Shown here: positions 28,415-32,188 of the stretch, one piece after another
Numbering within the stretch: the first letter of the stretch is position 1
Layout: the number at the start of each line of letters is the position of its first letter
NCBI GenBank assembly: GCA_016795155.1
Contig: JAEUIE010000005.1
Span: 62,001 to 126,000 of the forward strand
Length of the DNA: 64,000 bases
Direction: 5' to 3'
Origin: Planctomycetia bacterium
GTDB lineage: Bacteria > Planctomycetota > Planctomycetia > Gemmatales > HRBIN36
Notes under the pieces: generated by a model
Seen by the model: only the letters and a program-made list of their open reading frames with translations
Databases searched by the model: none
Told to the model about the DNA's origin: nothing
Position numbers and translations under genes: made by a program

Positions 28415-28512
28415 GGGAGCGTGTGTGCCGCTGGTGCGGGCCCTGGTCTTCAAAACCAGAGGGTGTCTTGAAGAAAGTCATCGGTGGGTTCGATTCCCAT
28501 ACGCTCCCGCCA
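28415..28512 (+). tRNA. selC: Selenocysteine tRNA, anticodon UCA
   Basis: A 98-nt tRNA with every hallmark of tRNA-Sec. The acceptor stem is 8 bp (28415-28422 with 28501-28508), followed by discriminator G and an encoded CCA (28510-28512). The anticodon stem CTGGT/ACCAG encloses CTTCAAA, giving anticodon TCA at 28450-28452, which reads UGA. The T stem is 5 bp with loop TTCGATT, so acceptor plus T arm total 13 bp (8+5, bacterial type). The variable arm (28460-28483) is very long and folds on itself. The D loop is only 4 nt (TGGT). It lies 112 bases upstream of the first selenoprotein gene. Confidence 0.97.
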
Positions 28513-28624
28513 GAAATCACTTGACCCGCTTAAAGATGTGGTTATCTGTCGATATAACTAACTGAAAGAAGGCCGGAAAGCCTTGAATTTCTTAGTCTCT
28601 ATCTCTCGTACGAGGAGTACCAGA

Positions 28625-29191
28625 ATGAAGCGAGCATTTGGTGCCTCGCTGATAACCTTGGCAGTGTATGCCACGATAGTTATCGCAGGCGATGTGAAGT
28701 CAGGCCCTCAGCCAGGCAAGGGGGTATCTTCGTTCTTCCCACTGAATATTTCCAACGTTGATACGCCTGCCAAGAATGGCAAGGAAAGCTGTTTTGTCTG
28801 ACAGCTGGGTGGCAAACCCGTCGCACTCGTCTTCGCACGCGAGACGAACGATGCCGTGGCCGGTCTGGCCCGGAAGTTGGATGCGGAAGTTGCAAAAGCA
28901 GGTAAAGGTAAGTTGAATGCCGTGGTAATCTTCACTTCAGATGAAGATGACATGAAAGATAAGATCGAGAAGTTCAAGACGGACAACAAACTGAAGAATA
29001 TCCATCTGGGGTTGGATGGCAGTAAGGGACCTGAAGGCTATAACCTTTCCAAAGATGCTTCAGTAACAGCCCTGCTTTATGTAAAGCGAAAAGTCCAGAA
29101 GAATCATGCCTTTGAGAAGTTCGCCACATCCGACATTGACGCGGTTGTGAAAGATTTCAGCAATCTGAACGCTGCACCTGAAAAGAAATAA
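28625..29191 (+). CDS. Exported selenoprotein with CxxU redox motif (UGA at 28799-28801 read as Sec)
   Basis: The frame starts at ATG 28625 after GAGGAG and runs 188 residues to TAA if the single in-frame UGA (codon 59) is read as selenocysteine. The N-terminus MKRAFGASLITLAVYATIVIA is a signal peptide. The UGA lies in C56-F-V-U59, a thioredoxin-type CxxC with the second Cys replaced by Sec. The protein continues without break as QLGGKPVALVFARET and LARKLDAEVAKAGK, then a thioredoxin-like alpha/beta pattern. It resembles a family of planctomycete exported thioredoxin-fold proteins that normally have CxxC before this conserved VFARE segment (from memory). Base and codon use do not change across the UGA. 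Function is probably periplasmic thiol redox; the partner is unknown. Confidence 0.88.
28827..28847 (+). promoter_or_regulatory. Candidate bacterial SECIS hairpin of the CxxU selenoprotein
   Basis: TCGTCT (28827-28832) pairs with AGACGA (28842-28847), and a T-G wobble can extend the stem, leaving a 7-base loop that begins CG. The loop starts about 32 nt after the UGA, inside the 16-37 nt range recalled for bacterial SECIS elements, with a G among the first two loop bases. The stem is weaker than in the next gene. A second structure, AGCTGT/ACAGCT (28787-28792 with 28801-28806), surrounds the UGA itself. Confidence 0.45.
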
Positions 29192-29220
29192 CCTTTCTTT
29201 TCCTTAATAGCCCCATTGCA

Positions 29221-29253
29221 CACCACTGAGAAATCTCAGTGGTGTCAGTGTTT
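29221..29253 (+). terminator. Terminator between the two selenoprotein genes
   Basis: CACCACTGAGA and its exact reverse complement (29221-29231 with 29234-29244) form an 11-bp stem followed by a T-rich tail. It suggests the two selenoprotein genes have separate transcripts, or that read-through is attenuated. Confidence 0.7.
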
Positions 29254-29328
29254 GATGATTGTATATCCATGATTGCCTGTTAAGATGTAGCCATCCGGTT
29301 CCCCAATTCTTCGGGAGGAGAGCAACAG

Positions 29329-30480
29329 ATGAGAAACAACCTGCCAGGAACAGCCTTGGTGTTGTTCTTGGGCTGGGCAACTGCAATCGCCTGGGCGGAT
29401 GATCCGCCCCAAAAGGATCCGCCCGCTCAAGACAGCAAGGCTGCTCAATCCCCAGCTGCGGCATTTACTGCAGCCAAAAAAGCTCATGAAGAAGCCAGCA
29501 AAGCCATGGATAAGGTAGTTACTGAGCTGCAGAAAAAAAAAGAACGCCTGTCATTACAGAACAAAGAGCTGAATGACGTGTACCAGGCCCGTAACAAGGC
29601 ATCACAGGAATTACTCAAATCAGCTGAGGTACTGGCCAAGGCAGAACCAACCACACCATTGGGATTTGAAGCAATCCTGGCCATTATTAACAATGGCCCA
29701 CCCATGTTAAAACCTGACATTATTAAAGTGCTGGTAGAACACCATGCCACGAATCCCAAGATTGGCGATATCGTTATTCGATTGAGCAGAGCACCAGCGT
29801 CAAAAGATATGGAGGCATTGCTGAATGCCATCATAGAAAAAAATCCCAACCGCGACGCCAAAGGCAATGCAACCTTTACGCTAGCCAGCATGAAGATGCG
29901 CAACAATCCGCAGGAAGCGGAAAAGCTGTTCGAAAAAGTCGTGAGTGATTACAAGGATGTGAAATACTTTCGGGGTACTCTTGGCGAGCGAGCCGAGGCA
30001 AATCTCTTCGAAGTGCGTCATCTGCAGATAGGTAAGGAAGTTCCTGAAATTGAAGGCGTAGACACCGACGGTAACAAGTTCAAACTGAGCGATTACCGTG
30101 GCAAGGTGGTCATGCTCGATTTCTGGGGGCATTGGTGAGGCCCTTGCGTAGCCATGTTCCCACACGAGCGGTCGCTCGTGAAGCGGATGGAAGGCAAGCC
30201 TTTTGCCTTGATTGGAGTGAACAGCGATACTGACAAGGAATTCCTCAAAAAGGAAAACGAACGGCAGCAGATTACCTGGCGTTCTTTCTGGTGTGGGGAA
30301 AAAGGAACCAGTGGTGAAATTCCCAGCAAGTGGAATGTTACCGGCTGGCCTACCTTGTACTACATCGATCACAAGGGAATCATCAGGCAGAAGAATCTGC
30401 GTAGCGAAAAGCAGATTGATGAATTCCTCGATAAGCTGGTAGCCGAGGCCGAGAAAGATGCCAAAGGCGAAAGCAAGTGA
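29329..30480 (+). CDS. Exported TlpA-like thioredoxin selenoprotein with UGPC active site (UGA at 30136-30138 read as Sec)
   Basis: With the UGA at codon 270 read as selenocysteine, the product has 383 residues. It starts at ATG 29329 after GGGAGGAGAGC and has a signal peptide (residues 1-23, ending AIAWA). Residues about 45-105 are a charged helical, coiled-coil-like region. From about residue 238 there is a TlpA/AhpC-type thioredoxin fold: VPEIEGVDTDGNKFKLSDY, then LDFWGHW-U270-G-P-C273-VAMFPHE, GVNSDTDKEF, and the cis-proline segment WPTLYYID. The motif is the thioredoxin CGPC with the nucleophilic first Cys replaced by Sec. Downstream of the UGA a perfect SECIS-like hairpin follows. It probably reduces disulfides or peroxides outside the cytoplasm. 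Confidence 0.93.
30163..30180 (+). promoter_or_regulatory. Bacterial SECIS element with GGUC tetraloop
   Basis: CACGAGC-GGTC-GCTCGTG forms a perfect 7-bp G+C-rich stem (30163-30169 with 30174-30180) with tetraloop GGUC. The loop begins 31 nt after the UGA. In E. coli fdhF the SelB-binding apical loop also contains GGUC, with the G and U as key contacts. Distance, stem and loop all fit a bSECIS. Confidence 0.85.
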
Positions 30481-30507: not shown

Positions 30508-30540
30508 CAGGTTACCGGTTATCTCCGGTAACCTGTTTGT
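30508..30540 (+). terminator. Terminator after the UGPC selenoprotein gene
   Basis: An 11-bp perfect stem CAGGTTACCGG/CCGGTAACCTG (30508-30518 with 30525-30535) with loop TTATCT is followed by TTTGTGTT, 27 bases past the stop codon. Confidence 0.85.
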
Positions 30541-30568: not shown

Positions 30569-32188
30569 ATGAAGATTGTGCCTTCTGTATTGGCTATCTG
30601 CCTGATTGTCCTGATCAGTTGGACAATTGCTGAATCACCGGATCAATTACCACTCGAGGTGGTAACGCCAACTCCCATCGCAGCTGAAGGCATTGGAAAA
30701 GGCAAATTGATCATTCAGGGTGGAGGTTCTACTCCCCAAGCACTGACAGATTTGTTTCTGAAGTGGTCAGGTGGAGAGAATACCAAGCTGGTCATTATCC
30801 CCACCGCCAGTGCAGTCGCCGAGAAGCCGACAGGATGGATGGAGCGATGGAAGGATCTGAACATCAACGATATTACCATGCTGCACACTCGCAATCGCAG
30901 CCGGGCCAACGAAGTAGCGTTTGTCGAGCCGCTGCGCCGAGCAACTGCAGTCTGGATCAGTGGTGGCGACCAGCGCCGCTTGTCGGAAACCTACTCCGGA
31001 ACACTGGTAGAGAAGGAACTGAAGGCATTGTTAAACCGGGGTGGGGTGATTTGGGGAACGTCCGCCGGTGCAGTCATCATGAGCAAACTGATGATTGCAG
31101 GGGGCACCGCACAGCAAGCAGAATTGGCCAGTGGCATGGATTTGCTGCCAGGTGTGGTCATCGACCAGCATTTCATAGCGAGAAAACGTGAGCCACGATT
31201 ATTGGGTGTGTTGAAGAGGTATCCTTCGCATGTGGGAATCGGGATTGATGAAGCAACTGCTCTGGTAGTGCAGGGGAGAGCGCTGAGTGTGCTGGGCAAT
31301 TCAACCGCCACTTTTTTGGTTTCTGGGAATACGGAACGCCCGTTGAAACGAACTGTTCTGAAGAATCAGGATGTCAGTGATTTAACCACATGGCGGCGAA
31401 TCGTATTCCAGCGTCAGGAACCAGCCAGGATTCATCCTGTCGTGAAGAAGCCAGACGTACCATCTGGTTCATTGGTGATAGTTGGTGGAGGCGGCATGCC
31501 CGTCGATATCGTGGAACGATTCATCCAGCTTGCTGGGGGTAAGGATAAGACTTTTGTCGTGTTACCTATATCCATGCCTGATCCCATTCCGGCTGGTTCG
31601 GGACAGTTTCTGAAACGGGCTGGAGTTAAGGATGTGCACATTCTGCCGGGACGCAGCAGGGATGCTGTCAATGATCCCAAAGCACTGGCTTTACTCGATG
31701 AAGCCCATGCAGTCTGGTTCGATGGAGGCAGGCAGTGGCGTTTTGTGGATGCCTATGAAGGTACACCATTCCTGGACAAACTTCATGGCGTACTGAAACG
31801 GGGTGGCGTGATTGGTGGCAGTTCTGCTGGTGCTACCATTCAAGGCGAATATCTTTGCCGAGGCAATCCACTCGGGCCACAGGACATGATGTGCGAGGGA
31901 TATGAAAAGGGGTTCGCATTTCTTCCGGGAGTTGGCATCGATCAACATTTCACGCAACGCAACCGCTTCAAAGATATGTTTCAATTCAAGAAGACTTATC
32001 CGCAATACTTGGGCATCGGTATTGATGAAGGGACAGCACTCGTTGTTCAAGGCCACAAGGCAGAGATTATCGGTCGAAATCGAGTCTGCTTCTATCCGCA
32101 TATACCTCAAGACGATAAGGACTTCATTTCAGTACGTTCCGGAGAATCGTTTGACTTGCAATCCGGGCAGAAGATAACGCAACCATAA
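30569..32188 (+). CDS. Exported tandem cyanophycinase-like (peptidase S51) protein
   Basis: The 539-residue protein carries a signal peptide (VLAICLIVLISWTIAES) and two complete copies of the S51 fold. The first domain (about residues 45-265) has the nucleophile elbow GTSAGA near S164; the second (about 295-525) has GSSAGA near S418. Each also has the family segments GGGST/GGGGM near its start, WISGGDQ/WFDGGRQ, and LPGVVIDQHF/LPGVGIDQHF. S51 serine peptidases include cyanophycinase, which cleaves cyanophycin to beta-Asp-Arg. No cyanophycin synthetase is visible here, and an exported double-domain form may act on another isoaspartyl-type substrate. Confidence 0.85.
   Translation: MKIVPSVLAICLIVLISWTIAESPDQLPLEVVTPTPIAAEGIGKGKLIIQGGGSTPQALTDLFLKWSGGENTKLVIIPTASAVAEKPTGWMERWKDLNINDITMLHTRNRSRANEVAFVEPLRRATAVWISGGDQRRLSETYSGTLVEKELKALLNRGGVIWGTSAGAVIMSKLMIAGGTAQQAELASGMDLLPGVVIDQHFIARKREPRLLGVLKRYPSHVGIGIDEATALVVQGRALSVLGNSTATFLVSGNTERPLKRTVLKNQDVSDLTTWRRIVFQRQEPARIHPVVKKPDVPSGSLVIVGGGGMPVDIVERFIQLAGGKDKTFVVLPISMPDPIPAGSGQFLKRAGVKDVHILPGRSRDAVNDPKALALLDEAHAVWFDGGRQWRFVDAYEGTPFLDKLHGVLKRGGVIGGSSAGATIQGEYLCRGNPLGPQDMMCEGYEKGFAFLPGVGIDQHFTQRNRFKDMFQFKKTYPQYLGIGIDEGTALVVQGHKAEIIGRNRVCFYPHIPQDDKDFISVRSGESFDLQSGQKITQP

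Follow-up and report, generated by a model that had tools for sequence, protein, structure and literature searches.

Selenocysteine (Sec) is inserted at UGA in this Gemmatales planctomycete, and the genes P0001 and P0002 are both genuine selenoproteins with predicted Sec incorporation: this best explanation, taken together with the roles and the separate transcription proposed below, is given a probability of roughly 0.9. The two genes lie close to a tRNA-Sec gene in a window, that is, the whole analysed stretch of DNA, of 64,000 nucleotides. A more specific proposal is rated jointly at a little better than even odds. Here, P0001 is the founding member of a new family of planctomycete selenoproteins, in which CxxU has moved from the canonical thioredoxin site to a new place on the fold, giving exported redox proteins a new active-site geometry; in the P0002 family, the SECIS RNA is so fixed in sequence that it dictates the peptide HERSLV, and a single hairpin serves either one UGA (UxxC) or two (UxxU).

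The tRNA-Sec gene (selC) occupies positions 28415–28512 of the + strand, is 98 nt long, carries the anticodon UCA (TCA in the DNA), and has its CCA encoded. The initial annotation had recognized it as tRNA-Sec, and ARAGORN and Rfam agree: the covariance model RF01852 matches with 70.7 bits (E 1.9e-12) at a cut-off of 47. It is the single tRNA-Sec above the family cut-off in the host genome (G000; 5.28 Mb, 97% complete). The protein part of the machinery scores over the curated cut-offs throughout: selB at C59:93113-94993 with 401.9 bits; selA directly after it at C59:95183-96541 with 564.3 bits; and selD on contig C12 with 365.5 bits. The latter features an internal TGA, SelD being a selenoprotein too (YASCAGUAGK; L232, G000:C12). 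The genome hence holds the complete Sec-decoding trait of selA, selB, selD, and tRNA-Sec. The initial annotation had suggested a search for the three genes and would have given up its reading had none been in the genome; since all three are present, this objection falls. At least eight selenoproteins are encoded, scattered over six contigs, and comprise the P0001 and P0002 types, a redoxin with the motif AFGUINC (L231; G000:C55:49000-51200), and SelD.

P0001 (28625–29191, + strand) encodes 188 residues and is predicted to be an exported CxxU redoxin-fold selenoprotein. Its reading frame contains a sole in-frame TGA at 28799–28801, which by alignment with homologues is the Sec codon of C56-F-V-U59 (CFV-U-Q), and stops at a TAA. 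P0002 (29329–30480, + strand) encodes an exported ResA/TlpA-like selenoprotein of 383 residues as judged by Pfam, alignment with ResA, and homologues. It features one in-frame TGA at 30136–30138, the Sec codon of U270-G-P-C (WGHW-U-GPC), and terminates at an ordinary TGA stop at 30478–30480. The translations thus bear out the earlier description of two genes each interrupted by one in-frame UGA. In both genes, the UGA falls on a Cys column, and Cys homologues at this column, which the initial annotation had proposed to look for, are found in both families. Both proteins carry a basic, hydrophobic N-terminal leader with a plausible signal-peptidase site as judged by eye, as do the homologues of P0001. 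This is consistent with the earlier claim of two exported thioredoxin-fold proteins, where export would rest on the leaders and the fold of P0001 is a predicted one.

Comparison with paralogues reveals mainly synonymous differences in the codons 3' of the UGA, with dN of ∼0.3 to 0.5 and dS of ∼2 or saturated. As judged from these codons, the frame downstream of both UGAs is under purifying selection. In a codon-usage scan of the 190 candidate TGAs in the window, those of P0001 and P0002 ranked fourth and second, respectively; the same scan brought up no convincing further Sec gene in the window. That the UGAs are ordinary stops—marking pseudogenes, sequencing errors, or truncated proteins—would agree with frames that mechanically end there, but is very improbable given that many independent genomes have this UGA at the equivalent codon, that dN/dS is low downstream of it, and that a hairpin is kept beyond the needs of the protein. 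A genome-wide reassignment of UGA, for example to Trp or Gly, would also have UGA read through in frame and is rated lower still, to the point of being barely credible: P0002 itself uses UGA as its normal stop, so that UGA is not reassigned throughout; the equivalent residue in relatives is Cys; and the tRNA is a tRNA-Sec accompanied by the full selABD set. Sec incorporation at both UGAs is hence the preferred reading.

P0002 consists of an N-terminal helical region and an AhpC-TSA/redoxin domain (Pfam PF00578, E 2.8e-16). With this domain, a UxxC motif, and a cis-Pro, it has the features of ResA/TlpA-like proteins, although its scores stay below the NCBIfam cut-offs for ResA (NF002854; 69.9 of 170 bits) and WAxxUGC_long (NF041054; 37.6 of 300 bits). 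In the alignment with ResA, the UGA falls on the first Cys of CxPC, i.e., the nucleophilic position, and it also aligns with a Cys in relatives from G005 and G006. These two genomes have no tRNA-Sec and exclusively Cys forms. Three more UGA copies of P0002 are present in the host genome, two on contig C22 and one on C62. P0002 would act as an extracytoplasmic thiol-disulfide oxidoreductase with Sec as the attacking residue of the CxxC site. Another redoxin with the motif YUTSC (L040 and L041, in G004 and G003) has a 7-bp hairpin of its own (GCATCTG-GTA-CAGATGC) downstream of the UGA and is a probable selenoprotein.

The bSECIS of P0002 (CACGAGC-GGUC-GCUCGUG; 30163–30180, + strand) has its loop 31 nt downstream of the UGA, with a folding energy of −11.6 kcal/mol. 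Published bSECIS criteria demand a G within the first two nucleotides of the loop, a distance of 16 to 37 nt from UGA to loop, and a folding energy of at most −7.5 kcal/mol (PMC13188914); loop sequence, spacing, and stability of the P0002 hairpin all lie within these bounds. Just 0.3% of 2000 synonymous recodings equal its stability. The form CACGAGC-GGUC-GCUYGUG is common to all WUxxC P0002-type Sec genes read. In the synonymous-recoding test, 13 of 14 scored Sec sites have p ≤ 0.05, and the Cys members have a median p of 0.53. The 17-mer CACGAGCGGTCGCTYGT occurs 45 times as an exact match in 20 of the 102 genomes of the order; the reversed control does not occur. At all 31 distinct sites checked, an in-frame UGA at the redox site lies exactly 27 nt upstream of this 17-mer. 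The peptide HERSLV is invariant at these SECIS sites, whereas the positions separating U from C/U are variable; the peptide thus seems to be dictated by the RNA. The near-invariant bSECIS downstream of the UGA would recruit SelB with Sec-tRNA-Sec.

The same SECIS accompanies double-Sec UxxU variants of the P0002 family, namely UGFU, ULTU, ULHU, ULNU, ULSU, URIU, and UPSU (loci L163, L172, L181, L184–L186, L188, L189, L192, L193, L199, and L200). In these members, the UGAs are nine bases apart and the second one lies 22 nt before the loop, within the accepted range; one hairpin may hence serve two UGAs. P0001 features a candidate bSECIS with a 7-bp stem and the loop CGCACGC (28827–28847, + strand), located 32 nt after the UGA. 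It folds with −7.4 kcal/mol, at the limit of the published model, and by itself is not significant against synonymous recoding (p = 0.125). In Sec relatives, 5.9 of the 7 pairs are kept in register, compared with 2.2 to 4.3 in slid registers and 4.2 in Cys forms. The assignment of this hairpin as a bSECIS is of moderate strength.

Each of the 102 genomes of the order has a homologue of P0001, with both Sec (CxxU) and Cys (CxxC) forms represented. Phylum-wide, homologues occur in 26 of 246 sampled genomes, and several distant families there include UGA forms. The column holding the UGA is invariant in the family alignment in that it carries either UGA or, in Cys-type members, Cys (CIVCQ, CFICE, and CYVCE). 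Both forms also occur among the paralogues in the host genome, with TGA on contig C19 and TGT, giving a CxxC form, on contig C44. Searches of P0001 against Pfam, NCBIfam, and PDB sequences gave no match, and a PDB sequence search with the family profile gave chance matches only. One of ten members matches the SelL-related family NF040769 weakly (E 0.047), and profile–profile comparison of the P0001 and P0002 families reveals no relation. By comparison with these sequence collections, the P0001 family is apparently an undescribed selenoprotein family. The initial annotation had described both proteins as new looking, which holds for P0001; P0002, as a ResA/TlpA-like UxxC protein, represents a known type, and TlpA-type selenoproteins with UxxC, UxxU, and UGC are already catalogued (PMC13188914).

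Two AlphaFold models of P0001, computed with different lead sequences, feature a redoxin topology with mean pLDDT values of 73.5 and 77.7 and ∼90 in the core; the structure model was built on four sequences. Foldseek matches of the models are ResA, TlpA, DsbE, Sco, and peroxiredoxins, with E values of 3.4e-6 to ResA and 5.2e-6 to the DsbE-like structure 3gl3. P0001 is hence predicted to be a redoxin-fold protein and, on the basis of the model, a member of the thioredoxin/redoxin superfamily. The CxxU (residues 56–59) precedes the first core strand (66–71), and ARETND stands where the canonical CxxC would be. None of the ten aligned family members has the cis-Pro. Lacking both a CxxC at the N-terminal end of the first core helix and the opposite cis-Pro, P0001 is predicted to have a thioredoxin fold but not the active site that normally goes with it, and its redox pair lies elsewhere. 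The thioredoxin active site that had been proposed for both UGAs stands for P0002 (WUGPC) and has to be dropped for P0001, where CxxU comes before the first core strand. A Cys-type relative of P0001 (L054 in G002) bears extra cysteines (CCDC) exactly at the would-be canonical thioredoxin site.

In the proposed mechanism, the CxxU/CxxC pair of the P0001 family would sit in a loop ahead of the core sheet, away from the canonical site, and probably cycle via a selenenylsulfide, donating electrons to other exported thiol proteins or accepting them from these. The missing canonical redoxin site and cis-Pro, together with the Sco-type copper proteins among the fold matches, would also suit a protein made with Sec in which CxxU/CxxC serves as a metal ligand or in a structural role instead of in a redox enzyme. 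This is unlikely, since Sec at CxxU is usually redox active (general knowledge; PMC13188914) and the invariant columns of the family alignment hold no conserved set of His/Met ligands. A redox role of the displaced CxxU is hence preferred.

Across the order, tRNA-Sec was detected in 81 of 102 genomes; the other 21 show none. Its presence does not strictly predict UGA forms, since some drafts have these with no tRNA-Sec detected. UGA forms of P0001 are present in at least nine such drafts (G008, G046, G069, G074, G083–G085, G088, and G089), and in four the P0002 SECIS is present with tRNA-Sec not detected. Assembly gaps or a strict search filter are the likely reason.

The tRNA-Sec, P0001, and P0002 genes point in the same direction and lie within 2.1 kb. 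For this arrangement, the initial annotation had suggested a dedicated periplasmic selenium redox module. That the three genes form such a module, being co-regulated and acting together, is improbable. Among the matches listed, no other genome of the 81 has a P0001 or P0002 relative within 30 kb of tRNA-Sec, and a direct search of 31 tRNA-Sec flanks found either gene only here (0 of 30 others). Relatives hence give no sign of a conserved selenium gene cluster, and several genomes have P0001 relatives without a close P0002 match among the matches listed; these lists may lack weaker relatives close to a tRNA-Sec, which does not bear on the flank search. In addition, a perfect 12-bp inverted repeat (29220–29245, + strand; −24.5 kcal/mol, z −5.65; no T-run) lies between P0001 and P0002 and is a probable transcription end or separator. 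A terminator-like hairpin follows P0002 at 30508–30535 (+ strand). The selA–selB pair is clustered elsewhere, on contig C59, and not by tRNA-Sec; unlinked Sec genes have already been reported in planctomycetes (PMC4807772). Given the lack of linkage elsewhere and the separating hairpins, the co-location seems to be due to chance or of very recent origin. Separate transcription of the three genes is most likely, and they would form no dedicated functional unit; P0001 and P0002 would be two of at least eight selenoprotein genes, placed beside tRNA-Sec by local gene order only. The neighborhood also holds a molybdopterin sulfite-oxidase-like gene with a leader (PF00174; 26108–27334), upstream of tRNA-Sec on the − strand, and a gene for a protein whose single chain contains two stretches of the peptidase S51 (cyanophycinase-like) type (30569–32188, + strand).

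These results suggest an apparently undescribed family of selenoproteins that spans the order and has its CxxU relocated; selenoproteins of this phylum have received little study. The P0002 SECIS represents a natural experiment, with dozens of relatives sharing one near-identical hairpin. With Cys relatives lacking this hairpin and some relatives apparently using it for two UGAs, it can be tested directly which sequence features a non-Escherichia coli SelB requires.

Compared with known systems, the locus resembles the selenoprotein operons grd, prd, SAO, and Tso (PMC13188914) in having more than one selenoprotein gene adjoining but differs in that linkage is not conserved, a separator lies between the genes, and the linkage to the tRNA was seen in this genome only. 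P0002 shares with ResA/TlpA/DsbE-like oxidoreductases the AhpC-TSA/redoxin domain, the UxxC at the CxPC position, the cis-Pro (WPT), and the leader, and is set apart by its long N-terminal helical region and the near-invariant SECIS fixing HERSLV. P0001 has in common with SelL-related proteins (NF040769) and peroxiredoxin-like folds the redoxin fold and a PVxLVFAR-type core strand, but not a redox pair at the canonical position. Brachyspira Sec.1 (PF13192; PMC5330540) likewise combines a thioredoxin-like fold with Sec in an N-terminal extension and a missing canonical CxxC. P0001 belongs to another family, being without a PF13192 match and featuring CxxU and a redoxin-type fold; Sec.1 is hence a precedent of the same logic in a different family.
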